Assembly: GCA_016899975.1 (NCBI GenBank)
Contig: JACJJN010000010.1
Span: 1 to 64,000, forward strand
Origin: Lacrimispora saccharolytica
GTDB lineage: Bacteria; Bacillota; Clostridia; Lachnospirales; Lachnospiraceae
Length of the DNA: 64,000 bases
Direction of reading: 5' to 3'
The stretch's first letter is position 1, and every line of letters begins with the position of its first letter. Below, piece after piece: positions 57 to 24,042 of this stretch. A program made the translations under genes and the position numbers. A model generated the notes under the pieces. The model searched no databases. It was not told the DNA's origin and was given only the letters and a program-made list of their open reading frames with translations.

Positions 57-200
57 AGAAGAACCCCATCCTTTTTTTCTTTGAGTATACCAGAAAATCA
101 GGATGGGTGTCACAATTTATTCATTCATGCGTTTGTCGTGCCCGCACCAGTTCTCCCTTCATAACCGTTCTGCAAGAGCATGTGATCATCCACACGTAAA

Positions 201-243
201 ATCAGGCGGAGACACTCCATAAATCTGAGTATCTCCGCCTGAT
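201..243 (-). terminator. Intrinsic terminator of the AMP-ligase operon
   Basis: Perfect 12-bp arms (ATCAGGCGGAGA at 201-212 and its complement at 232-243), extended inward by ACTC/GAGT-type pairing. On the minus strand the stem is followed by TTTT. It lies about 90 nt past the ligase stop codon. Bases 57-200 hold no gene that I can support. Confidence 0.8.
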
Positions 244-329
244 CTATCGGTCAGCCGCAGCTCGTCCTGTTTTTCCTGCTCCTGCGTCGTCTGACCGGCT
301 ATTTCTTTTTCGATGCACCTGATTCAACA

Positions 330-1838
330 TCAGAATCTCTTGATTTTCTTTGACGGGGTTTTTTCGAATTCCGTTTCCCTTACTTTCAGGCTGTAGATCC
401 GTTTATACACCGGAGCTTCCCTGTTGTAATCATCGATCAGTTTCTGCAGTTCCGCCTGAATATCGTGGATCCGCTGCTTCTTCGCATATTCGTAGTCGGG
501 ATAAATCTCTGCTTCGATCACGCCGTTGTTTTCCCGCACCAGGATTTCCTGGATCAGCCTTGCAGTGCCAAGACGGTTTTCCAGTTCTTCCGGTGATACG
601 TTCTCGCCGTTTTTTGTGATGATCAGATTCTTCTTTCTTCCGGTCAGATAGACAAAACCATCTTCATCCACATAGCCAAGATCTCCGGTTCGCAGCCAGC
701 CGTCCACCAGCGTTTCTTCCGTCTCCCGGGGCATTTTGTAATATCCCTGCATCACGCTGCTTCCCCTGACCCACAATTCCTGATCCACGACCCTCGCCTC
801 ACAGTTTGGCAGCAGCTGGCCGACGGAATCTTTCCGGATATTCCAGCTCACCGTCGTACTGATCACCGGGGAACATTCGGTCATGCCGTAGCCCTGAAGG
901 ATTGTGATCCCGTATTTTTCAAACAGATCGATATAGGAAGGATCCAGATAGGCGCCTCCGCTGCAGATTGTGTGAAACTGTTTTCCGAATACCTGATTTT
1001 TCACAAGACCGGCGGGCAGCATCGATGCCTCCTCCAGCTTCTTCGCCAGTGTCTCAATCATCAGCGGGACCATCAGGATCATATTCGGCTGGAACAGCTT
1101 GATATTCTTCGCCACCCGCATCAGGGAATCGTTGATACAGATCACGCTTCCAAGAGAAATGCCTTTCAGGATATCCATACTCAGACAGTAGGCATGGTGG
1201 ATCGGAAGGACAGAGAGGATCACGGTTCTCGACGGAATCTTCATATCAAGACAGGTGGCATTCTCCGCCATATTTCTGTGGGTGAGCATCACTCCCTTGC
1301 TCTTTCCCGTCGTTCCCGATGTATACATGATCGTACACAGCTGATCCGGGGAGGGTTCATAGGAAAAACCGCCCTCATAGTCCCTCAGCAAACGTTCCAT
1401 AGACAGCCAGTGTCCGTCATGTTCTTCTTTCTGCATGGAGACCAGAATCTTCAGCTTCGGGCACCGCTCTTTCACGATTGCCGCAACATCCCCACGGATT
1501 TCATCCAACACCAGCATTGTCACGTCCGCACGGTCAAGCAGTTCACAGACCTCTTCCGCTGGCAGGGACGCGTCCAAGGGCACCGCAACACTTCCGCTGT
1601 TCACAATCCCGAAATAAGCGGACAGCCAGTAATAGGAGGTGGCTCCGATCACTGCAATATGTTTCCCCTGCTGTCCAAGCGCTTCCACGGCACGGGAAAA
1701 ACTTTCGCTGTCCCGGCGAAGCTGCGAGTAACTTTTTGTCTCGATCTCATGCTTTCCGATTTTATAACGGACCGCATCCTCCGGCCCGAACCGATCTTCC
1801 GCCTGTACCAGTATCTCTCGAATGGTGCTGTAAGTCAT
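330..1838 (-). CDS. AMP-dependent acyl/aryl ligase (ANL superfamily)
   Basis: A 502-residue adenylate-forming enzyme. It shows the P-loop YTSGTTGKSKGV (172-183), the A5 motif YGMTE (317-321), TGD (384-386), the hinge RKKNLI (401-406) and a C-terminal PSKKIKR that supplies the catalytic lysine. The family activates a carboxylic acid as acyl-AMP and passes it to CoA or a carrier-protein thiol. It is the last gene of a leftward operon directly behind a stand-alone acyl carrier protein, so loading of that carrier (a fatty acyl-AMP ligase-like role) is my inference. The start is set by AAGGAGG seven bases before the ATG. A structured repeat (1854-1901) separates it from the carrier gene. Substrate unknown; a plain fatty acyl-CoA ligase is the alternative. 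Confidence 0.88.
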   Translation of the reverse strand: MTYSTIREILVQAEDRFGPEDAVRYKIGKHEIETKSYSQLRRDSESFSRAVEALGQQGKHIAVIGATSYYWLSAYFGIVNSGSVAVPLDASLPAEEVCELLDRADVTMLVLDEIRGDVAAIVKERCPKLKILVSMQKEEHDGHWLSMERLLRDYEGGFSYEPSPDQLCTIMYTSGTTGKSKGVMLTHRNMAENATCLDMKIPSRTVILSVLPIHHAYCLSMDILKGISLGSVICINDSLMRVAKNIKLFQPNMILMVPLMIETLAKKLEEASMLPAGLVKNQVFGKQFHTICSGGAYLDPSYIDLFEKYGITILQGYGMTECSPVISTTVSWNIRKDSVGQLLPNCEARVVDQELWVRGSSVMQGYYKMPRETEETLVDGWLRTGDLGYVDEDGFVYLTGRKKNLIITKNGENVSPEELENRLGTARLIQEILVRENNGVIEAEIYPDYEYAKKQRIHDIQAELQKLIDDYNREAPVYKRIYSLKVRETEFEKTPSKKIKRF

Positions 1839-1853
1839 CGTTTCCTCCTTCCT

Positions 1854-1901
1854 GACGCACTTGCTGCGTCATCATGGTAGATTTGGAAGTTTACTTCCAA
1901 A
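1854..1901 (-). repeat. Twin-hairpin intergenic element, copy A
   Basis: Two consecutive stem-loops in the gap between the acyl carrier and ligase genes: GACGCA-CTTGC-TGCGTC (1854-1870) and TTTGGAAG-TTTA-CTTCCAAA (1882-1901), separated by 11 nt. The same architecture recurs at 4580-4627 in the same operon with a compensatory change in the second stem, so the structure rather than the sequence appears to be kept. It ends about 15 nt upstream of the ligase start codon. It is not followed by a T-run, so it is not a standard terminator. It may tune mRNA stability or stoichiometry. Confidence 0.7.
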
Positions 1902-1917
1902 CTTCTGCCCTCCCGCA

Positions 1918-2145
1918 TCAATCCTTCAGGGTTTCCAGATAATCCACGGCCTCCTGTACGGTCCGGATGTCTGCAGCCGCTGTCTCATCGATCTCCACAT
2001 CAAAGGTATCCTCGATCTCACCGAGCATGCTCATAAAATCGAAGGAAGTAAATCCCAGATCCTCCATAAATCTGGATTCGGGCTGTACCTGCTCCGGCTC
2101 CACTTCCACATAATTACAGATAATCTCTACCAGTTTTTCAAACAT
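1918..2145 (-). CDS. Stand-alone acyl/peptidyl carrier protein
   Basis: A 75-residue acidic four-helix carrier. The phosphopantetheine site is in LGFTSFDFM, with Ser34 the predicted attachment residue; housekeeping AcpP has DSLD here, so the TSF context marks a dedicated carrier rather than the fatty-acid synthase ACP. The start follows TTGGAGGATAGATAG. It sits between the condensation-like gene (57 nt upstream) and the AMP ligase, which suggests the ligase loads it and the condensation-like enzyme uses the thioester. It needs a phosphopantetheinyl transferase encoded elsewhere. D-alanyl carrier (DltC-like) is an alternative, but no DltB/DltD partners are present. Confidence 0.9.
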   Translation of the reverse strand: MFEKLVEIICNYVEVEPEQVQPESRFMEDLGFTSFDFMSMLGEIEDTFDVEIDETAAADIRTVQEAVDYLETLKD

Positions 2146-2201
2146 CTATCTATCCTCCAAAATTCTGTTCCGTTGCCTTTTTCAAAAAGACATTCCTGTC
2201 C

Positions 2202-3605
2202 TTATACCAATTTGATGATATCTCCGATCGGCAGATCCGGATTTTCCGCGCCCTTGAACATAATCCGGCACAGATAATAGTACAGAAACTCCAGATCTTC
2301 CCTGGAAACGGCATGCACCTGATGCTCAAAGTTGAAATCCAGGCCGTTGTCCTCCGGACGATGCATAACGGTCAGGTACATCGCCTGTGTGGTCGCTCCG
2401 TTGGGATACCATTTGGTTTTATAGCGGATTCCTCCCAGCTTATCCAGTCCCTTTTCCTGCAGCGTCATCGGCTGATAAGTCAATGACATGGGCTCATAGG
2501 TCAACCCCGGCTCATGAGGATAAACCTTCGCTCTGTGTGCGAAGTATTCCACCGGATCATAGTTGGCATGGCGGAACATTTCATTTTGTTTGTCCCGAAT
2601 CTCATAAATACCTTCCAGAAAAGTCTTATCTTCTGATATGATCGTCCGGAACGGGAAGGAATGGATCCTCGTGCCTCCGGATTTTTTCTCCTTCAGGGTT
2701 GCGCGGCGGGCGATCGCTGTATGGATGCTCACATCGTCGTGTCCGTTCATCTTCTGGAAAAAGGTACGAAGCCCCATCAGCAAAAGGCATACCAGGGACA
2801 CATGATACTTTTCACAGAAATCCATCAGTCTCCTGGTGGGTTCCGCCTCAAGATGGAAAATATCCAGTTCCGAATCCACAGAATCTGAAGTATTGTACGC
2901 CGCCCTCAGTTCCGGATCCTTAAATTTCTTTCTCGCCGCTTCCAGCTGTCCGGTTCCGCGGATTCCGTTATAGATCGGCTCTGATTCCTCGATCAGCTTT
3001 TCAAAAAATTCCCGGTCACGCTGCTGTGCCCGGCTTCCCGCCTCATAGGCAAGATCTTTCTGAAGCTGTTCGATATAAGAGCTCATATTCTTTGGATACG
3101 GAACGTTTTCATACTTAGCATTACAGTACAGCTCGATGATGTCTTTCAGGAAACAGATCAGCGACTGGGCATCCAGGATCAGGTGGCTCGCCAACAGATA
3201 AAGACCGTTGAAACCGTCCGGCATTTGAATCATCACGACCCGGTTCATAGGAGAATCCTCCAGTTTAAACGGAACCGCCGTCCATTTCCTCATCGTTTTC
3301 TCTGCCTCTTCCATGGACATCCCGGAGAAATCCACAAATTCGATCTCCCGCTCTTCTTTGTCAACCACATACTGATAACAATTTCCTTCTTTATCCTTGG
3401 CAAACCGCACACGCATCGCCTCGCAGCGCTCGTATGCTTTATAAATAGACTGTCTCAAAAGCTCCCAGTCGATTTCCACCTCAATAGTAAGACTTGTCCC
3501 AATATTCAAAACTTCTTTTTTCGGACAAAAATTCTGGTAAAAAAAATGAAATTTCTGCGCGGCAGTCAGCGGATATACCGGATATCCTTTTCTCTTCCTC
3601 ATCAT
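2202..3605 (-). CDS. Condensation-domain-like acyltransferase
   Basis: A 467-residue protein resembling the chloramphenicol-acetyltransferase-like fold of NRPS condensation domains, alcohol acyltransferases and PapA-type enzymes. The active-site motif HHxxxDG appears as SHLILDAQS (140-148): the catalytic second His (H141) and structural Asp (D145) are kept, but the first His is Ser and the Gly is Ala. The family joins a carrier- or CoA-bound acyl group to an amine or hydroxyl. The start (ATG at 3605, or the next ATG at 3602) overlaps the upstream hydrolase stop in an ATGA, so the two are translationally coupled. The downstream carrier gene makes an acyl-carrier substrate likely. The acceptor is unknown. 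Confidence 0.75.
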   Translation of the reverse strand: MMRKRKGYPVYPLTAAQKFHFFYQNFCPKKEVLNIGTSLTIEVEIDWELLRQSIYKAYERCEAMRVRFAKDKEGNCYQYVVDKEEREIEFVDFSGMSMEEAEKTMRKWTAVPFKLEDSPMNRVVMIQMPDGFNGLYLLASHLILDAQSLICFLKDIIELYCNAKYENVPYPKNMSSYIEQLQKDLAYEAGSRAQQRDREFFEKLIEESEPIYNGIRGTGQLEAARKKFKDPELRAAYNTSDSVDSELDIFHLEAEPTRRLMDFCEKYHVSLVCLLLMGLRTFFQKMNGHDDVSIHTAIARRATLKEKKSGGTRIHSFPFRTIISEDKTFLEGIYEIRDKQNEMFRHANYDPVEYFAHRAKVYPHEPGLTYEPMSLTYQPMTLQEKGLDKLGGIRYKTKWYPNGATTQAMYLTVMHRPEDNGLDFNFEHQVHAVSREDLEFLYYYLCRIMFKGAENPDLPIGDIIKLV

Positions 3606-4564
3606 TTTAGAATTCCCCCTGTGAATGTATCCAAAGCCTTTTCATAGGCTGCCCTGTTTTTGTAATAGCTTTCTGCATGACCGGCTCCCTGCACGATCAG
3701 CTTTGTCTTTGGCCCTGCGTAATTCTGATAGATTTCCTCACACATCCGGCACGGAACAAACGTGTCCGCGCTTCCGTGGATCAGCAGCGCAGGAATCACA
3801 GCCTTGCGCACCTCCCGCGCGGCGTTGCATTCGTCCAGCCCGTAACCGGCTCTCTTTCTGTTTACCCGGTCAGCAATCTGGATCATCGGAAATGCCGGCA
3901 AATGGTACATCGTATGAAGTACATGGGTAAACACCTCTTTCGGCGAGGTGAAGGCACAGTCGGAAACGACTCCTTTTACCTGAACCGGAAGATCCAGCCC
4001 TGCGGTCATAAGAACCGTTGCGCCTCCCATGGAGGTTCCGTGGAGAAGAATCTCCATATCCCTCTGCTGTCCCTGTGGTGCCTGATCCAGCATCCAATGG
4101 ATCCACCGGACTGCATCCAGCCGGTCTTTGCATCCGAACCCGATATACTCTCCTTCACTCTGCCCATGGGCGCGTTCATCCACCAGAAGCATCCGGTATC
4201 CATGTTTCAGATAGTAGTCGGACAGTCCAATGTAATCGCTCATGCCATCGCTGGTATAACCGTGAAAACAAATCACTGCCCGTGTGCCTTTTTCTCCTTC
4301 AAAGTACGTGCCGTGAAGCTTCAGTCCGTCCCCTGACGTGATCCACACATCCCGGTGCGGCTGTTCCATCATCCACTTCTTTCGTTCTTCCATCAGCGGG
4401 AAATACTGTGCCCAGTCGGTTCCCGACATTTTTATCGTGCGCTCCCGTTTCGCTCTGCTGCGCTTCATCGTTCGCCGGTAGAAATACGCGGAGCCTGCCA
4501 GCTCCGCCGCCGTACAGATTCCCAAAACCGCAGCAGCTCCCTTGATCATTGCTTTCCTCTTCAT
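3602..4564 (-). CDS. Membrane-anchored alpha/beta hydrolase
   Basis: A 320-residue serine hydrolase. It starts with a basic end and a hydrophobic segment (about residues 7-29) that should act as an uncleaved anchor, leaving the enzyme outside or at the membrane. It has an HGYTS oxyanion turn (101-105), a nucleophile elbow HGTSMGG with Ser178, acid Asp267 in SADTFVP, and His296 in GAGHAES. This resembles BAAT/DLH-type hydrolases. In this operon it could release or trim a carrier-bound acyl product, or cleave an ester substrate; that is inference. Its stop overlaps the next gene by 4 nt. A twin-hairpin element lies just upstream of its start. Confidence 0.8.
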   Translation of the reverse strand: MKRKAMIKGAAAVLGICTAAELAGSAYFYRRTMKRSRAKRERTIKMSGTDWAQYFPLMEERKKWMMEQPHRDVWITSGDGLKLHGTYFEGEKGTRAVICFHGYTSDGMSDYIGLSDYYLKHGYRMLLVDERAHGQSEGEYIGFGCKDRLDAVRWIHWMLDQAPQGQQRDMEILLHGTSMGGATVLMTAGLDLPVQVKGVVSDCAFTSPKEVFTHVLHTMYHLPAFPMIQIADRVNRKRAGYGLDECNAAREVRKAVIPALLIHGSADTFVPCRMCEEIYQNYAGPKTKLIVQGAGHAESYYKNRAAYEKALDTFTGGILK

Positions 4565-4579
4565 TTTTTCCTCTTTCCT

Positions 4580-4627
4580 GACGCACTCGCTGCGTCATTA
4601 AGGGAGATTTGAAAGTTTACTTTCAAA
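4580..4627 (-). repeat. Twin-hairpin intergenic element, copy B
   Basis: GACGCA-CTCGC-TGCGTC (4580-4596) plus TTTGAAAG-TTTA-CTTTCAAA (4608-4627), the same layout as copy A at 1854-1901. Relative to copy A the second stem carries an A-T for a G-C pair on both arms, and the first loop has one substitution. The SCP2 stop codon (4625-4623) lies inside the second stem, so ribosome passage would affect folding. It lies about 15 nt upstream of the hydrolase start. Confidence 0.7.
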
Positions 4628-4955
4628 CTTTCTTACTTTCAATCAGAGTTTTCAGTTTCAGCGCCTTGTCAATGTTACCTTCCACTTTCAGCTGTCCCAG
4701 CGTCACCGCAAGAATCGGATCTTTCTTTCCTTCCGCGATCTTAAACAGCGTTTCCGCCGAACAGGTAAAGACTGCGTCTTTGTCATAATATTCATAAGGC
4801 TCCACATTCAGGCATCCGTCTTTTACTTCCACATAAAAGATACCTTCTGCCTCCCCTGTCACATTGAACTGGTAAGCAAGATGCTCCGTCACATCGCTCA
4901 CATCCGCTCCCATAAACATTCCCTTTACTTTCGAAAACATCTCCGCGTACGTCAT
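4623..4955 (-). CDS. SCP2 sterol-transfer-like domain protein
   Basis: A 110-residue single-domain protein of the SCP2/sterol carrier fold. The C-terminal half (GKKDPILAVTLGQLKVEG) carries the typical pattern of a lysine-rich turn, hydrophobic strand and helix with K-x-x-L. SCP2 proteins bind lipids or acyl-CoAs in a hydrophobic tunnel. It is the first gene of the leftward operon and starts after AAAGGAGGAAAT. As a soluble lipid binder it could present the acyl substrate or product of the ligase/carrier system; this is inferred from position. No catalytic residues are expected. Confidence 0.82.
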   Translation of the reverse strand: MTYAEMFSKVKGMFMGADVSDVTEHLAYQFNVTGEAEGIFYVEVKDGCLNVEPYEYYDKDAVFTCSAETLFKIAEGKKDPILAVTLGQLKVEGNIDKALKLKTLIESKKV

Positions 4956-4970
4956 ATTTCCTCCTTTTTC

Positions 4971-4988
4971 GACTGATGGTCAACTGTT
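4971..4988. promoter_or_regulatory. TetR-type operator-like repeat, site 1
   Basis: GACTGATGGTCAACTGTT, a near copy of site 2 at 5014-5031, starting 43 bp (about four helical turns) away. The core GACt-GAT-GGTC is an almost perfect inverted repeat typical of TetR-family operators. It falls between the leftward transcription start and the SCP2 ribosome site. Confidence 0.6.
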
Positions 4989-5000
4989 TCTTCTGTTAAA

Positions 5001-5025
5001 TTATCATTTTTCCGACCGTTGGTCA
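5001..5025 (-). promoter_or_regulatory. Leftward promoter overlapping operator site 2
   Basis: On the minus strand TTGACC (5025-5020) is followed by GATAAT at a 15-bp spacing, or by TAATTT at 17 bp. The -35 hexamer is part of the GACC-GTT-GGTC repeat, so regulator binding would block polymerase. The spacing is not ideal, so the exact -10 is uncertain. Confidence 0.5.
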
Positions 5026-5031
5026 ATAGTT
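5014..5031. promoter_or_regulatory. TetR-type operator-like repeat, site 2
   Basis: GACCGTTGGTCAATAGTT contains the perfect inverted repeat GACC-GTT-GGTC. It matches site 1 at 4971-4988 in 13 of 18 positions. The adjacent divergent TetR gene is the obvious candidate to bind both sites. Confidence 0.6.
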
Positions 5032-5084
5032 CTATCTTTACAAAAATGCAGAAAAAAACGGATGCTTTCCGTATAGTTTTTCCG

Positions 5085-5114
5085 TTGTTTTTTCTGTCTT
5101 TTTTATGTTATACT
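5085..5114 (+). promoter_or_regulatory. Sigma-A promoter of the TetR gene
   Basis: TTGTTT (5085-5090), an 18-bp spacer and TATACT (5109-5114), about 60 nt before the TetR start codon. It lies outside the two operator-like repeats, so autoregulation would have to act at a distance. Confidence 0.6.
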
Positions 5115-5174
5115 AAATGATAATATTGACTCTTTACAGAGATCCTACAGCAGACCGAACAGAAAGGAAATCTC

Positions 5175-5786
5175 ATGGCAAGACAGGACAAATATGAAAA
5201 AATCCTTGATGCCCTCCAGACACTTCTGGAGGACCGCAACCTTCAGACGATCTCCGTCAGCGAGATCGCACAGACGGCAGGGATCGGGAAGGGAAGCATC
5301 TATTATTATTTTCCATCCAAGGAAGCCATCCTTGAGACGCTCATTGAACGAAACTACGAAAAGCCCCTGGAAACCGCAAAGCAGCTTGCCGGGCAGCCGG
5401 ACATTTCTCCGTTTACCCGTATGGCAATGATTTTTCAGGCATGCCGGAATTCTTCCTCCGAATTTCTGAAATCGGAAAGCAATTCCATCGCAGGGGCTCA
5501 GGAAAAATCCTTCCTTCACCAAAAATACGTCTCACATATGATCGCCGAGATGAAACCGGTGCTCGCAGAGATCATCCGTCAGGGAATCCAGCAGGGAGAA
5601 ATCCACTTTGACCGCCCGGAAGCACTGGCGGAGATCGTGCTGATCGTCCTGACCGTAAAGCTGGACAATACACTTGTCCCCTCTTCCCACGAGGAGATCC
5701 GCGACACCATCGCCGGACTGGTGACCCTCCTGGAAAAAGGCACAGAAAATCCGGCAGGCTCCCTGAATTTCCTGATGACTATCTGA
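5175..5786 (+). CDS. TetR family transcriptional regulator
   Basis: A 203-residue protein with an N-terminal helix-turn-helix (about residues 7-50), including the signature IGKGSIYYYFPSKEAIL. It is followed by an all-helical ligand and dimer domain. The start has AGAAAGGAAAT upstream. It is transcribed away from the SCP2/ligase operon, and two GACC-NNN-GGTC-like repeats sit in the shared 219-bp gap. Family precedent makes it a repressor released by a small hydrophobic ligand, plausibly a fatty acid, acyl-CoA or the operon product. The 3' end of the coding region doubles as the left arm of its terminator. Confidence 0.9.
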   Translation: MARQDKYEKILDALQTLLEDRNLQTISVSEIAQTAGIGKGSIYYYFPSKEAILETLIERNYEKPLETAKQLAGQPDISPFTRMAMIFQACRNSSSEFLKSESNSIAGAQEKSFLHQKYVSHMIAEMKPVLAEIIRQGIQQGEIHFDRPEALAEIVLIVLTVKLDNTLVPSSHEEIRDTIAGLVTLLEKGTENPAGSLNFLMTI

Positions 5787-9642: not shown

Positions 9643-10410
9643 TCACCTCATTCTTTCCAAAAGGGATACGCCGCGGTCGATCAGATACAGAAAAAGCTTC
9701 TCAAAGGCAAAACTCAGCAGTACGATCACGATCGTCCACGCGAACAGATCCGGCGTGTTCAGATACACCTTCGCCTGATACAGCTGTTCCCCAATGGAAT
9801 TATCTGGAATGCCGATGACCTCCGCAGCCACCCCCGCCTTCCAGCAAAGCCCAAGCCCCACCGAACATCCGGTGCGGAAATACGGAAGGATCTGCGGCAG
9901 ATACAGATATCTCAGGCGCACCGGCCGTGAAAGATCAAAAACATCCGCCATCTCCATCAGCTTCCGGTCCAACTGCTTTTCTCCATCCAGGACATTGGTG
10001 TAAATGATCGGGAATACCATCAGAAAGGAGATCACCACAGACAGGTTTCTCGACGGCACCCAAATGAGTACAAGGATGACAAAGGATGCTACCGGTATCG
10101 CCTTGATCGTGAGAACAAACGGCCGGAGAAATTCCTCCACCCGGCGGAATTTTACGGCAAAACCGGCTCCCGCCACGCCCCCCGCTGCCGCAAAAAGAAA
10201 GCCTCCTGTGATCCGCACCACAGAAAACAGCACGCTGCTCCAGAATTCCCCTGTGGGAAGCAGAGTCAAAAGACGCCGGAAAACAGCGGCAGGAGATACC
10301 AGCAGTATCTCCTGTCCAATCCACATGCTGACCAGCTGCCAGATGATCAGCCAGGCAGCCACAGCCCATATTTTTATTTTATTCTTCCGATTCGATGTAG
10401 TAGAAGTCAT
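9643..10410 (-). CDS. ABC transporter permease (SsuC/TauC type)
   Basis: A 255-residue inner-membrane subunit with about six hydrophobic helices. It has the family EAA-type loop near LMEMADVFDLSRPVRLRYLYLP, which docks onto the ATPase. The start ATG at 10410 lies inside the 3' end of the binding-protein gene (32-nt overlap), with GGAGGG 13 nt upstream and AGGAG directly adjacent. The overlap implies coupled translation. Partner genes are the binding lipoprotein upstream and the ATPase downstream. Confidence 0.88.
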   Translation of the reverse strand: MTSTTSNRKNKIKIWAVAAWLIIWQLVSMWIGQEILLVSPAAVFRRLLTLLPTGEFWSSVLFSVVRITGGFLFAAAGGVAGAGFAVKFRRVEEFLRPFVLTIKAIPVASFVILVLIWVPSRNLSVVISFLMVFPIIYTNVLDGEKQLDRKLMEMADVFDLSRPVRLRYLYLPQILPYFRTGCSVGLGLCWKAGVAAEVIGIPDNSIGEQLYQAKVYLNTPDLFAWTIVIVLLSFAFEKLFLYLIDRGVSLLERMR

Positions 10411-11521
10411 CTCCTGGCAATGTCCCTCCTATGGATTGCGGATTCTGTTCGTTCAATACAGACAGATAACCGGAAAGTTTCTCTTTCATCTCTTCCCCGG
10501 CAAGGTAGACGATATTGCACTCCGGCAGCGCTTTCAGCGCCACTTCCTCCGTAACGATCTCATAATTGCCCACCAGCTTTGCGGCTTCCTCTGTATTTCC
10601 ATTGACATATTCCACCGACTCCTGGTAATGTTTCAGGAAGTTTTCCACCGCTTCCGGGTGCTCCTGTGCAAATTCCGTGCGCACCACGGTAGCGCCGGTG
10701 ATCATCGTACTCTTTTCTTCACCGTCTGCCTGTACCTTTTCCCATTCCTCCGTCAGATCAAGGGCAACGCGAAGGGAAGGATTCTTGGTCTGCGCGGTGG
10801 TCACAAACGGCTGAGGAAGCATGGCGATCCCGGAGCTGTCTGCTGTGATCGCAGCCACACATTCGGAATGTTCACTCTTCCACTCGATCGTCACGTCCGT
10901 TCCCGGTACAAGTCCATTCTGTTCCAGTACATAATTCAGCGCATACTCCGGTGTGGAGCCTTTTCCGCTGGCATAGATGGTCTTTCCTTTCAGATCCGCA
11001 GGGGACTGCACGGTATCGCCGTTCTCAACAAGATACAGAACGCCCAGCGTATTGACCGTAAGCACCTGAACAGCGCCGTCCATATTGTTGTACAGAATAC
11101 TTGCAAGGTTTGCCGGCACAGCCGCGATATCCACATTGCCCTGGGCGATCTGCGGCGTCACTTCGTCGGGAGACGCCACAATCTGAAAGGTATAATTTTC
11201 ATCGGTGACCGCCTGCTGGTCCACATCATCCATGAATTTCACCATGCCCATCGCCGTAGGACCCTTGAGCGCGGCAATCCGAACCTCCACCGGCTCCGAT
11301 GACTCCGGTTCGCTTTCCGAAACCGCCTGGCCGTCTGATTCAGAGTCCGTCTTCGCCTGGCTGCCCGATTCCGAAATCGCCTGACTCTCAGTGTTTGATG
11401 CGGAACTTCCGGACACGGAAGATTCCCCGCCGCCGGAGCATCCCATAAGCGCGGATGCCGCCAATAATGCCGCCATCAACAGCGCAGACCATCTGCCGCC
11501 TGACTTTTTCCATTGTTTCAT
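10379..11521 (-). CDS. ABC transporter substrate-binding lipoprotein (NMT1/SsuA-like)
   Basis: A 380-residue lipoprotein. The signal peptide ends in a lipobox ALMGC, with Cys28 the lipidation site. A Ser/Glu/Gln-rich tether of about 60 residues follows, then a periplasmic-binding fold of the NMT1/SsuA type starting near VEVRIAALKGPTAMGM. It captures the ligand outside the membrane for the SsuC/SsuB-type subunits encoded next. A strong site ACAGGAGG precedes the ATG. The gene lies 132 nt behind the hydrogenase gene with no terminator seen between them, so read-through is possible. Ligand unknown. Confidence 0.87.
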   Translation of the reverse strand: MKQWKKSGGRWSALLMAALLAASALMGCSGGGESSVSGSSASNTESQAISESGSQAKTDSESDGQAVSESEPESSEPVEVRIAALKGPTAMGMVKFMDDVDQQAVTDENYTFQIVASPDEVTPQIAQGNVDIAAVPANLASILYNNMDGAVQVLTVNTLGVLYLVENGDTVQSPADLKGKTIYASGKGSTPEYALNYVLEQNGLVPGTDVTIEWKSEHSECVAAITADSSGIAMLPQPFVTTAQTKNPSLRVALDLTEEWEKVQADGEEKSTMITGATVVRTEFAQEHPEAVENFLKHYQESVEYVNGNTEEAAKLVGNYEIVTEEVALKALPECNIVYLAGEEMKEKLSGYLSVLNEQNPQSIGGTLPGDDFYYIESEE

Positions 11522-11620
11522 TTTTCACTATCCTCCTGTTGTACGTTTTTTCTGTCCTGAAAAATTTTTCGGTGTCCCTGTCCAGTCTTTTGCCGGTTGC
11601 TGTTCACGGCTGCATCGTCA

Positions 11621-11648
11621 GTAACAGTTCAGCTGGCTGAACGATTGC
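11621..11648. repeat. Dispersed palindrome, copy 2 (hydrogenase/ABC gap)
   Basis: GTAACAGTTCAG-CTGG-CTGAACGATTGC; the arms match in 9 of 12 positions. It sits 5 nt beyond the hydrogenase stop and 100 nt before the binding-protein start. Confidence 0.6.
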
Positions 11649-11653
11649 CACCG

Positions 11654-13177
11654 TTAGTCTACCAGCTTGTCCAGTTCCTTGACATGTTCGGTCTCACTGG
11701 AAACCTTATGATTTGCCTGAGCCGCGTATTTGTTGACCGCCGCCTGAGACTTTTTGATCGGCTGCATGGTTCCTGCGCCTGCCACACATCCGCCCGGGCA
11801 TGCCATGCCTTCCAGCAGATAACCGTTGTATTTTCCTGCTTTCGCCATCGTCAGCAGCTTCCGGCACTCCCGAAGCCCCTCCGCGTTGGCAATCTTCACC
11901 TCACGGTCTGGATATCTCTGGTGGATCACATCCTCCACGGATTTTGCCACACCGCCGGCAACGGCAAAGTTCCGTCCATCCACAGAAGCATCATTGACGC
12001 CGTTGGGATCTTCTTCGATAGCTTCCAGATCCAGCTGACGCGCCTCAAAAATACCCGTCATTTCCTCAAAGGTCAGGACAAAATCCACTTCACTGCGGAC
12101 ATCGTTGCGCATCGCTTCCAGCTTTTTCGCCGCACACGGTCCGATAAAGACCACTTTCGCATTGGGATTGTGGTGCTTGATCAGGCGCGCAGTCAGCGTC
12201 ATCGGAGTCAATGCCATGGAAATACAGTTGGCGTAATCCGGGAACAGCTTTTTCGCCATGGATGACCATGCCGGGCAGCAGGACGTTGCCATAAAAGGCA
12301 GATGCTCCGGAACTTCCTCCAGAAAATCGTTTGCCTCCTGGGTCGCGCACAGATCCGCTCCGATCGCCACCTCAAAGACATCGGCAAATCCCAGCTCCCT
12401 CATCGCCGCACGTAGCTTTCCGGGCGTTACCTTCGGTCCGAACTGTCCGACAAACGCCGGCGCCAGCGCTGCATATACCCGCTCTCCCGAACGGATCGCG
12501 CGGATGACCTGGAAAATCTGTGACTTGTCTGAAATCGCGCCGAACGGACAGTTGACCAGACACTGGCCGCAGGAAACACAGCGGTCGTAATCGATGTCCG
12601 CTTTTCCGTTTTCATCGGAATGGATCGCGTCCATACCACAGGCAGCCGCACAGGGGCGTTCCTGCACGATGATGGCATTGTAACCACATACCTCCGCACA
12701 TTTTCCGCATTTGATACATTTTTCCGGATCAATGTAGGAACGTCCGTTGGTCCGGTCCAGCGTCACCGCATTCTTCGGACAGACTTCCACACAGGGATGC
12801 GCCAGACAACCCTGACATCCGTCCGTCACAAACACCCGCTTCTCCGCACAGGCATTGCACGCAAACTTGATCACATTGATCAGCGGCGGCGTATAATAGG
12901 TTTCCGTCTGATCCGCCAGTTCAATGTTGTCCGACAGCGGCGCGTGTTCACCGGCGCCTCTGCACGGCAGTCCCATCGCCAGACGAAGACGTTCTCCTAC
13001 GATCGCCCGCTCCAGAAAAACGTCATTTCGAAAGTTTCCGATTTCTCCCGGAATAATCTCGTAGGGAAGCTCCTCGATCCTTTTTCCCACATAACCGTCT
13101 GTCTCGTACGCCATCCGGGCAATCTCTGTAAAAATAGAATGGCGGATTCCCTGAATTCTCGTCTCTACTCCTCTCAC
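11654..13177 (-). CDS. [FeFe] hydrogenase, monomeric, ferredoxin-domain type (group B-like)
   Basis: A 507-residue enzyme for reversible proton reduction. Many Cys motifs in residues 107-210 can hold several 4Fe-4S clusters, including CIKCGKCAEVC and CVSCGQCLVNC. The H-cluster signatures are L1 TSCCPAW (298-304, with both the proton-relay and ligand cysteines), L2 GPCAAKKLEA (346-355) and L3 EGMACPGGC (456-464). The GPC form of L2, rather than MPC, and the TSCCPAW form fit the poorly studied group B. The start is GTG, supported by AGCAGGAGGTAGACAA. A promoter at 13290-13318 and a palindrome in the leader precede it. HydEFG maturases are not in the window. Confidence 0.9.
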   Translation of the reverse strand: MRGVETRIQGIRHSIFTEIARMAYETDGYVGKRIEELPYEIIPGEIGNFRNDVFLERAIVGERLRLAMGLPCRGAGEHAPLSDNIELADQTETYYTPPLINVIKFACNACAEKRVFVTDGCQGCLAHPCVEVCPKNAVTLDRTNGRSYIDPEKCIKCGKCAEVCGYNAIIVQERPCAAACGMDAIHSDENGKADIDYDRCVSCGQCLVNCPFGAISDKSQIFQVIRAIRSGERVYAALAPAFVGQFGPKVTPGKLRAAMRELGFADVFEVAIGADLCATQEANDFLEEVPEHLPFMATSCCPAWSSMAKKLFPDYANCISMALTPMTLTARLIKHHNPNAKVVFIGPCAAKKLEAMRNDVRSEVDFVLTFEEMTGIFEARQLDLEAIEEDPNGVNDASVDGRNFAVAGGVAKSVEDVIHQRYPDREVKIANAEGLRECRKLLTMAKAGKYNGYLLEGMACPGGCVAGAGTMQPIKKSQAAVNKYAAQANHKVSSETEHVKELDKLVD

Positions 13178-13250
13178 TTGTCTACCTCCTGCTTTCTCAT
13201 TGATTTATTGTAAAAATCCTTCACAATCTTCCTGCACCTGTGAATATTTT

Positions 13251-13278
13251 GTAACAGCTCAGTCAGTTGAACTGTTAC
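13251..13278. repeat. Dispersed palindrome, copy 3 (hydrogenase leader)
   Basis: GTAACAGCTCAG-TCAG-TTGAACTGTTAC, two mismatches. It begins about 5 bp downstream of the predicted hydrogenase transcription start, where a repressor operator or a 5' mRNA hairpin would act. Confidence 0.65.
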
Positions 13279-13289
13279 AATCTTTTTTC

Positions 13290-13318
13290 ATTATACACAA
13301 ATTTGTATGAAATTACAA
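13290..13318 (-). promoter_or_regulatory. Sigma-A promoter of the hydrogenase
   Basis: Minus strand TTGTAA (13318-13313), a 17-bp spacer and TATAAT (13295-13290). The 327-bp gap 13178-13504 otherwise holds the palindrome (13251-13278) and the ppdK terminator (13426-13466); I see no further gene in it. Confidence 0.75.
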
Positions 13319-13425
13319 CCTGGCAGGAAGTACACAAAGTGAAACAAAATGATAACAAATTTCAACGACAGATCTGCCGGTATGATTTTTTATCTATGAG
13401 ATTGTCCGGAGAAGTTTTCCAAAAA

Positions 13426-13466
13426 AAATGCCTTATCTCCGGCATTCTGTCGGAGATAAGGCATTT
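13426..13466 (-). terminator. ppdK terminator
   Basis: A perfect 16-bp stem (13426-13441 with 13451-13466) and a 9-nt loop. On the minus strand it is followed by a run of T residues, directly downstream of the ppdK stop. Confidence 0.92.
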
Positions 13467-13504
13467 CTTATCTTTGAACAATATAAATTTTATTCAGCGA
13501 TTGC

Positions 13505-16129
13505 TTACTTATTATTCAGAGCAGCCTGTGCAGCAGCCAGACGTGCGATCGGCACACGGAATGGTGAGCAGGATACGTAGTTCAGTCCTACTTTGTGGCA
13601 GAACTCTACGGAAGACGGATCTCCGCCGTGCTCTCCGCAGATTCCCATTTTCAGGGTCGGTTTTGTAGCGCGTCCTTTTTCAGCTGCCATCTTGATCAGC
13701 TGGCCAACGCCTTCCTGATCCAGTTTCGCAAACGGATCGGACTCGTAAATCTTGTTCTCATAGTAAGAACCAAGGAATTTACCAGCGTCGTCACGGGAGA
13801 AGCCGAAGGTCATCTGAGTCAGGTCGTTGGTTCCGAAGGAGAAGAACTCTGCTTCCTCTGCAATCTGATCAGCGGTCAGTGCAGCACGCGGAATCTCGAT
13901 CATAGTACCAACATGGTAGTTGATGTACTCGCCTTTTTCCTTCATAACTTCTTCTGCTGTATTTACAACAACTTCTTTGACAAATTTAAGCTCTTTCTTC
14001 TCGCCAACCAGCGGAATCATGATCTCAGGAACGATATCGTATCCCATCTCTTCTTTCACTTCGATAGCAGCCTCGATGATTGCTCTTGTCTGCATCTTAG
14101 CGATTTCCGGATAGGTAACTGCCAGACGGCATCCACGATGACCCATCATCGGGTTGAACTCATGCAGTTCATCACATCTAGCCTGTACTTCTTCCGGTGT
14201 CAGACCCATATCTTCTGCCAGAGCTTTGATATCTTCTGCAGCAGTCGGAACAAACTCATGCAGCGGCGGATCCAGATAACGTACAGTCATCGGACGGCCT
14301 TTCAGAGCTTTGTACATTGCCTTGAAGTCCTCTTTCTGATAAGGGATCAGCTCGTTCAGAGCTGCTTCTCTCTCTTCTACAGAATCAGACAGGATCATCT
14401 TACGGATCTTCGGAATACGCTCCGGATCGAAGAACATATGCTCGGTACGGCAAAGGCCGATTCCCTCTGCACCAAGTTTTACAGCGTTCTCGGTATCTGC
14501 CGGTGTATCTGCATTGGTACGAACCTGCAGTTTACGGAACTGATCTGCCCAGCGCATGATACGTCCGAAGTTTCCGCCTACGGAAGCTTCTACAGTCTTG
14601 ATATCGCCTTTGTAGATCTTACCTGTGGTTCCATCCAGAGAAATGTAATCTCCTTCATGGAAAGTATATCCGCCAAGTTCGAAATATTTTGCTTCTTCAT
14701 CAATCTTGATCTCACCGCATCCGGATACACAGCAGGTTCCCATACCACGTGCAACAACAGCTGCGTGGGAGGTCATACCACCGCGTACGGTCAGGATACC
14801 TTCCGATGCATGCATACCCTCGATATCTTCCGGAGAGGTCTCCAGACGAACCAGGATAACTCTTTCACCTTTCTCATGAGCAGCTTTTGCTTCATCAGCG
14901 GTGAAGTATACTTTACCAGCCGCAGCTCCCGGAGATGCCGGCAGAGCGGAACCGATTACTTCGCCTGCTTTCAGAGCAGCCGCATCGAAGGTCGGATGCA
15001 GCAGCTGATCCAGGGATTTCGCATCGATACGGCATACAGCCTCTTCCGGTGTGATCATTCCCTCGTCTACCAGGTCACAAGCGATCTGGATAGCAGCCGG
15101 AGCAGTTCTCTTTCCGTTACGTGTCTGCAGGAAGAACAGTTTGCCTTCCTGGATGGTGAATTCCATATCCTGCATATCGCGGTAATGGTTTTCCAGTTTC
15201 ATGGCAAGGCTCATAAACTGATTGTAGCACTGCGGCAGATCCTCAGCCAGCTTGCTGATTGGCTGCGGAGTGCGGACACCGGCTACAACATCCTCGCCCT
15301 GTGCATTGATCAGGTACTCACCAAAGATACCTTTTGCACCGGTAGACGGGTTACGGGTAAATGCAACACCTGTTCCGGAGGTATCACCCATGTTTCCGAA
15401 TACCATGGTCTGTACGTTTACGGCTGTTCCCCAATCGCCCGGGATATCGTTCATACGACGGTAAACGATAGCACGCGGATTGTCCCAGGAACGGAATACG
15501 GCTTTTACAGCCTCCATCAGCTGTTCCTTCGGATCCTGCGGGAACTCAGCGCCGTTCATATTTTCAGAATAAACAGCTTTAAATCTCTTAACCAGTTCTT
15601 TCAGATCGTCGGTAGTCAGTTCGGTGTCGTAATGAACGCCTTTTGCCTCTTTCACTTCGTCGATGATCTTCTCGAAGAAAGATTTCGGAACTTCCATAAC
15701 TACGTCTGAGAACATCTGGATAAATCTTCTGTAAGAGTCATATGCGAATCTCGGATTTCCGGTCTTCTTTGCGAAGCCTTCTACGGATACGTCATTCAGA
15801 CCCAGGTTCAGGATAGTATCCATCATACCAGGCATGGATGCTCTAGCTCCGGAACGAACGGATACCAGCAGCGGATTCTCGGTGTCTCCGAATTTCTTTC
15901 CGTTCTCCTGCTCCAGCCATGTCATTGCCTCGAAGATCTGATTCTGGATTTCTTCTGTGATCTTCTTTCCGCTCTCATAGTAATTTGTGCAGGCCTCTGT
16001 TGTAACTGTGAAGCCCTGCGGAATCGGCATGCCAAGATTGGTCATCTCTGCCAGGTTGGCACCTTTACCACCAAGAAGGTTTCTCATATTGGCGTTACCT
16101 TCATTGAATAAGTAAACCCATTTTGCCAT
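13505..16129 (-). CDS. ppdK: Pyruvate, phosphate dikinase
   Basis: An 874-residue enzyme of full family length that interconverts PEP + AMP + PPi and pyruvate + ATP + Pi. The N-terminal ATP-grasp region holds GGKGANLAEM. The swivelling phosphohistidine domain has GGMTSHAAVVARGMG with catalytic His455. The C-terminal TIM barrel carries the PEP/pyruvate site, including a Cys in GICGEHGG. It has its own promoter (16332-16359) and a strong terminator. The gene upstream encodes a phosphofructokinase with PPi-type residues, so the pair suggests PPi-linked glycolysis in which PPDK makes ATP from PEP. Confidence 0.97.
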   Translation of the reverse strand: MAKWVYLFNEGNANMRNLLGGKGANLAEMTNLGMPIPQGFTVTTEACTNYYESGKKITEEIQNQIFEAMTWLEQENGKKFGDTENPLLVSVRSGARASMPGMMDTILNLGLNDVSVEGFAKKTGNPRFAYDSYRRFIQMFSDVVMEVPKSFFEKIIDEVKEAKGVHYDTELTTDDLKELVKRFKAVYSENMNGAEFPQDPKEQLMEAVKAVFRSWDNPRAIVYRRMNDIPGDWGTAVNVQTMVFGNMGDTSGTGVAFTRNPSTGAKGIFGEYLINAQGEDVVAGVRTPQPISKLAEDLPQCYNQFMSLAMKLENHYRDMQDMEFTIQEGKLFFLQTRNGKRTAPAAIQIACDLVDEGMITPEEAVCRIDAKSLDQLLHPTFDAAALKAGEVIGSALPASPGAAAGKVYFTADEAKAAHEKGERVILVRLETSPEDIEGMHASEGILTVRGGMTSHAAVVARGMGTCCVSGCGEIKIDEEAKYFELGGYTFHEGDYISLDGTTGKIYKGDIKTVEASVGGNFGRIMRWADQFRKLQVRTNADTPADTENAVKLGAEGIGLCRTEHMFFDPERIPKIRKMILSDSVEEREAALNELIPYQKEDFKAMYKALKGRPMTVRYLDPPLHEFVPTAAEDIKALAEDMGLTPEEVQARCDELHEFNPMMGHRGCRLAVTYPEIAKMQTRAIIEAAIEVKEEMGYDIVPEIMIPLVGEKKELKFVKEVVVNTAEEVMKEKGEYINYHVGTMIEIPRAALTADQIAEEAEFFSFGTNDLTQMTFGFSRDDAGKFLGSYYENKIYESDPFAKLDQEGVGQLIKMAAEKGRATKPTLKMGICGEHGGDPSSVEFCHKVGLNYVSCSPFRVPIARLAAAQAALNNK

Positions 16130-23618: not shown

Positions 23619-23667
23619 ACATCTTGTTGAGCGGCACGGCCCGCAAGAAACTGAGAAAACCGAATAT

Positions 23668-23751
23668 GCAGGAGTGGCGGAATTGGCAGACGCGCAGGCT
23701 TCAGGTGCCTGTGGTCGCAAGATCGTGTGGGTTCAAGTCCCATCTCCTGCA
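23668..23751 (+). tRNA. tRNA-Leu (anticodon CAG), copy 1
   Basis: An 84-nt class II tRNA. The acceptor stem is GCAGGAG/CTCCTGC with discriminator A. The anticodon loop TTCAGGT sits between CAGGC and GCCTG and gives anticodon CAG at 23702-23704. A variable arm is present (TGGTCGCAAGATCGT) and the T-loop is GTTCAAGTC. The CCA end is not encoded. It decodes CUG. Confidence 0.97.
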
Positions 23752-23791
23752 TTCTCACTTTTTTGTTTGTTGTCCCGTAAAACATAAGTAT

Positions 23792-23875
23792 GCAGGAGTG
23801 GCGGAATTGGCAGACGCGCAGGCTTCAGGTGCCTGTGGTCGCAAGATCGTGTGGGTTCAAGTCCCATCTCCTGCA
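23792..23875 (+). tRNA. tRNA-Leu (anticodon CAG), copy 2
   Basis: Identical in all 84 bases to copy 1, with a start-to-start period of 124 bp, so it is a recent or gene-converted tandem duplicate. It shares the upstream promoter and is followed by a T-rich run from 23877 that could end transcription. The CCA end is not encoded. Confidence 0.97.
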
Positions 23876-24042
23876 TCTTTTTTTATTTTTAAACACGCTC
23901 TAAGACATTTCGATAAATTTTCCCATTTTATAATTTTTCAATTTTTACTTCTCTTTTGATGTTTCCTCTTTTACTTTTTCCTATACAAAAATCAAATCAT
24001 TGATATCGTATTTGTTTCCCGATAAAATTTTTCTTACAAAAA

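Follow-up and report, generated by a model that had tools for sequence, protein, structure and literature searches.

The locus at positions 330 to 5786 of the window, the 64,000-nucleotide stretch of Lacrimispora saccharolytica DNA that was analysed here, is a Lachnospiraceae copy of a known three-gene cassette that joins fatty acids to amines in gut Clostridia. The three genes encode a condensation enzyme (C), a carrier protein (T), and an AMP ligase (A), and from sequence comparison we read the locus as a CTA-type fatty acid amide (FAA, or acyl amine) biosynthesis operon with a probability of roughly 0.88, its product likely being an N-acyl amine. This reading draws on the match of the condensation protein to the FAA synthase OaaC (E 3e-113), the C-T-A gene order, the separation from NRPS domains in a tree (100/100), the condensation motif, a pair of candidate operators, and the co-occurrence of a hydrolase. 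The modest addition made here concerns what travels with CTA, namely an SCP2 protein, the hydrolase, and a TetR regulator with its operator pair, which were not found in the two preprints on the pathway (PMC13142362, PMC13060934).

An earlier note on this DNA had recognised no described pathway in the gene set, a view that can no longer be held because C-T-A is already in print as the acyl amine (FAA) cassette of gut Clostridia. That note had itself named assignment to an already characterised pathway as grounds for giving up its proposal, and for the C, T, and A genes this assignment now holds. One preprint takes the three-gene operon as already established (PMC13060934), and both preprints credit the discovery of the cassette to Chang and colleagues (PMC13142362, PMC13060934). 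Acyl ethanolamines are higher in CTA+ isolates of Blautia and Coprococcus catus than in CTA− isolates, Lachnospiraceae with the cassette produce larger amounts of acyl ethanolamines and of acyl dopamine, and the toxicity of fatty acids is relieved by amines, with acyl amine formation linked to survival in fatty acids (PMC13060934). Bacterial acyl amines act on the host receptors GPR119, GPR132, and PTGER4 (PMC13142362).

Gene layout

Six open reading frames were found at 330–5786, all where the earlier note had put them, and its domain calls were borne out by a Pfam match for each gene, with NCBIfam in agreement. The minus-strand operon begins with a stand-alone SCP2-fold protein (4623–4955; PF02036, 1.4e-13), followed by an alpha/beta serine hydrolase with a putative membrane anchor (3602–4564; PF12146, Hydrolase_4, 2.4e-13), the free-standing FAA condensation enzyme (2202–3605; PF00668, 1.7e-44), the free-standing acyl carrier protein (ACP; 1918–2145; PF00550, 5.6e-13), and the AMP ligase (330–1838; PF00501, 5.1e-64, with the FadD-like C-terminal domain PF23562), and a TetR-type repressor is encoded divergently on the plus strand (5175–5786; TetR_N, 7.7e-13, with TetR_C_39 above its cut-off). 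The stop of the hydrolase gene overlaps the start of the condensation gene by four bases (ATGA, 3602–3605). All six genes have single-domain Pfam matches only and no PKS or NRPS module lies in the operon, as had been said, and the description of a minimal thiotemplate set for an acylated small molecule was likewise correct. On the 3′ side of the ligase gene, a strong, long hairpin with a T-run (198–246, minus strand; −36.4 kcal/mol, z −5.4, then TTTTA) is a probable intrinsic terminator of the operon; Rfam gave no match at gathering level near the operon. Elsewhere in the window, two tandem tRNA-Leu(CAG) genes lie at 23667–23877.

A 70-nt double-hairpin repeat is present on the minus strand at 4561–4630, where it immediately precedes the hydrolase start codon, and at 1835–1904, where it immediately precedes that of the ligase. 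The second stem of this repeat has 25 copies in its own genome versus 0 in a reversed control, and nearly all of the copies have the first stem and end in a GGAGGAAA-like ribosome site and the ATG of different genes. The double hairpin, which has no Rfam family at gathering level, looks from these sequences like a dispersed repeat carrying a ribosome-binding site; a close copy occurs in only 3 of 298 other genomes of the family.

Condensation enzyme, carrier, and ligase

Among solved structures, the condensation protein matches PDB 12KH with an E-value of 3e-113 over residues 10–466, which is its full length, the next-best structure reaching 7e-13 and the remaining ones being no stronger. 12KH is the structure of OaaC, a free-standing FAA synthase from Coprococcus eutactus that converts acyl-ACP and free amines to fatty acid amides (PMC13142362, preprint). 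The window protein is 35–39% identical to proteins of the OaaC clade, so amine and acyl specificity is not transferable to it.

The condensation motif, SHLILDA, lies in a 467-residue single-domain protein and keeps the catalytic His and Asp. All 110 proteins from the window's clade have the second motif His, the Asp, and a final Ala (xHxxxDA), the OaaC-like clade has xHxxxDS in 14 of 15, and the residue after the motif Asp in published FAA enzymes is Ser in 42%, Ala in 36%, and Gly in 17% (PMC13142362, preprint). Given the invariant Ala and the 78% that Ser and Ala make up in the published set, SHLILDA is typical of the FAA condensation family and no anomaly. The Ser of the carrier motif LGFTSFD is the phosphopantetheine site and is kept across relatives, and the motif is exact in 88 of 112 carriers of the window's clade, a pattern by which TSF is typical of the clade. 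Both SHLILDA and TSF had thus been correctly seen in the translations, but they are not the unusual features that they had been taken for. The carrier is distinct from the three other ACPs of the same genome; the ligase motifs YTSGTTGKSKG, GYGMTE, and KNGENVSPEE are conserved, and a ligase homologue adjoins the condensation gene in nearly all relatives.

In a 45-row tree of condensation proteins, NRPS C domains, those of the host family included, split from all stand-alone condensation proteins with 100/100 support, and the window's clade is recovered as a single group (98/97) next to the OaaC clade, the unity of the OaaC-side group itself being uncertain because of two long-branch rows in this second group. 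The starter condensation domains of lipopeptide NRPSs, reported to be the nearest relatives of the FAA enzymes (PMC13142362), share with the window enzyme the PF00668 fold and a fatty acyl donor but differ from it in their large modules, HHxxxDG motif, and carrier-bound aminoacyl acceptor. Neither HHxxxDG nor a multidomain module, the canonical marks of an NRPS condensation domain, is found in the window protein, and an NRPS or lipopeptide assignment was rejected because the protein has a single domain and falls outside the NRPS C domains in the tree.

Other stand-alone condensation proteins were seen in the survey. Three of them (L040, L042, and L045), 33–36% identical, form their own branch, and neither a carrier nor a ligase is encoded near them. 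L044 (about 9772–16000) holds a separate stand-alone condensation system: here the operon encodes a distant relative of the condensation protein, a ligase, a carrier, an Sfp-type phosphopantetheinyl transferase (identified by eye), an ABC ATPase, and a possible exporter of 1200 residues.

Hydrolase and the nature of the product

The predicted model of the hydrolase (pLDDT 89.5) has a long N-terminal helix (residues 2–33) followed by the alpha/beta hydrolase fold, and from its hydrophobic sequence the helix is predicted to be a membrane anchor. The triad Ser178, Asp267, and His296 is invariant across 36 rows, and the nearest solved fold is the Pf2001 esterase, ahead of feruloyl esterases and monoacylglycerol lipase. 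The window's condensation clade occurs in 39 of 397 host-family genomes (17 have a more distant relative), and hydrolase orthologues of at least 51% identity are found in exactly the same 39, the next match below this set falling to 44%. A scan of 299 genomes sampled from the phylum gave no further condensation match at 1e-40, and the window's condensation clade is absent from the only other compared genome of the genus. Hydrolase paralogues of 42–43% identity (L201 and L202) have a conserved but different neighbourhood.

A serine hydrolase that is one-to-one with the window's condensation clade, and that shares its fold with the endocannabinoid-system enzyme monoacylglycerol lipase, might be a fatty acid amide hydrolase, in which case the operon would both make and break acyl amines and set their level. 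We consider this unlikely, compatible as it is with the CTA reading, since the nearest solved relatives are esterases, with no amidase among the top matches, and the OaaC-like clade mostly works without a hydrolase. We also consider it very unlikely that the acyl group is transferred to a hydroxyl, giving an acyl ester or a remodelled membrane lipid, with the SCP2 protein and the hydrolase serving lipid remodelling. Condensation-fold enzymes do include ester-forming ones, the hydrolase is esterase-like and has a membrane-anchor-like N-terminal helix, and the window's clade has Ala after the motif Asp where the OaaC clade has Ser; however, OaaC, the nearest characterised relative, makes amides with free amines, OaaC and the window's clade group together in the tree, away from NRPS C domains, and the Ala variant already makes up 36% of the published FAA set.

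TetR, its candidate operators, and the SCP2 protein

Nearly all of 89 TetR–SCP2 intergenic regions contain two copies of TTGACC-NNN-GGTCGAAAA, mostly 43–45 bp apart, amounting to 179 sites versus 2.4 expected from base shuffles, counts that are not independent because some loci are close relatives. In the window the operator cores lie at 5014–5024 and 4971–4981, a core-to-core distance of 43 bp, within two minus-strand members of this conserved palindrome pair: candidate TetR operator 1 (TTGACCAACGGTCGGAAAA, 5008–5026), which overlaps the probable −35, and candidate TetR operator 2 (TTGACCATCAGTCGAAAAA, 4965–4983), between the putative promoter and the SCP2 start. The core at 5014–5024 overlaps a TTGACC, a possible −35 element of this promoter. 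The paired operator occurs in its own genome at this locus only, and near-matches elsewhere in that genome are unpaired and no more frequent than in a reversed control, a pattern that suggests a local role for TetR and led to the rejection of a wide regulon.

The predicted model of the SCP2 protein (pLDDT 89.4) has the SCP2 fold, with Z 15.6 and an rmsd of 2.1 over 108 residues against the SCP2-like structure 8af3 and Z 13.0 against 1pz4, which has a C16 fatty acid bound. About ten genomes have an SCP2 orthologue (65–73%) but no condensation gene; four of these keep an adjacent TetR and the operator sequence, and one of the latter also has a broken ligase remnant. In that last arrangement, at L195:4610–7300, TetR, the twin operator, and SCP2 are followed by the broken ligase and the condensation, carrier, and hydrolase genes are gone, which looks like operon decay. 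Given the orthologues in genomes without a condensation gene, SCP2 may not be confined to FAA synthesis, and the idea of it as an obligate FAA part is weakened; SCP2 and TetR, being found without the cassette, are less tightly bound to it.

Conservation of the neighbourhood

The neighbourhood survey covered 80 named loci, with relatives almost all from Lachnospiraceae (Fusicatenibacter, Eisenbergiella, Merdimonas, Blautia, Sellimonas, Mediterraneibacter, Roseburia, and others), and counts were taken over testable loci. The ACP and the ligase were each present in 72 of 72, the hydrolase in 68 of 68, and SCP2 and TetR each in 64 of 68; the C-T-A order with a stand-alone carrier and ligase is found in the window and in 72/72 named loci, and TetR is divergent in 63 of 64. 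The complete six-gene set occurs in 55 of 62 testable named loci, which bears out the co-conservation that had been proposed as a check on the gene set, and the window's next genes outward are kept in only 2–3 of 80. Loci of the OaaC-like clade have C-T-A with a different TetR and without SCP2, and a distant hydrolase in some only.

The six-gene arrangement is far beyond chance, and the notion of functionally unrelated chance neighbours is practically untenable: although SCP2 and TetR persist without the condensation gene in some genomes, the full set is kept where flanking genes are not, the hydrolase and condensation genome sets are identical, and the operator pair is conserved, and for the condensation, ACP, ligase, and hydrolase genes the locus counts and co-occurrence contradict it.

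Discussion

The CTA-type reading places the locus beside two described systems. Like the window, the OAA cluster of Coprococcus eutactus (OaaA, OaaACP, and OaaC) consists of three free-standing proteins with C-T-A logic, and it shares with the window the non-canonical xHxxxD[S/A] motif and the full-length condensation match. The window's condensation protein nevertheless belongs to a different clade, with Ala rather than Ser after the Asp, and the window adds SCP2, the membrane hydrolase, and the divergent TetR, none of which the OaaC paper mentions (PMC13142362). The CTA operon described from Lachnospiraceae such as Blautia wexlerae belongs to the same family and has the same gene order, with the carrier between C and A; the paper on it defines three genes only and leaves SCP2, hydrolase, and TetR unmentioned (PMC13060934). 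Blautia-named loci of the present survey belong to the window's clade. A text search of the literature found no description of SCP2 combined with a condensation enzyme.

By homology to OaaA and OaaACP, the ligase would adenylate a free fatty acid and load it onto the holo carrier, and by homology to OaaC the condensation enzyme would then hand the acyl group over to a small amine that diffuses freely, yielding an N-acyl amine. TetR would repress the operon through the two operators over the SCP2 promoter and would probably be released by a fatty acid, an acyl thioester, or the product. The SCP2 protein probably carries or buffers fatty acid, and the putatively membrane-anchored hydrolase might, most likely, free fatty acids from lipid esters or edit acyl thioesters. 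The selective benefit would probably lie in getting rid of free fatty acids that are toxic, a benefit already proposed for Blautia wexlerae.

We hypothesize, tentatively and at somewhat worse than even odds, that the six genes form one fatty-acid-responsive unit, in which TetR responds via the twin operator to free fatty acid or to acyl thioester, with SCP2 capturing this fatty acid, the hydrolase supplying or recycling it, and C-T-A making acyl amine from it. If so, the three-gene description of the pathway would have missed a regulated detoxification-and-signalling circuit. That one large clade has a repressor and operators of its own, together with a putative lipid carrier and a hydrolase, offers a direct handle on the timing of acyl amine production by gut Lachnospiraceae.
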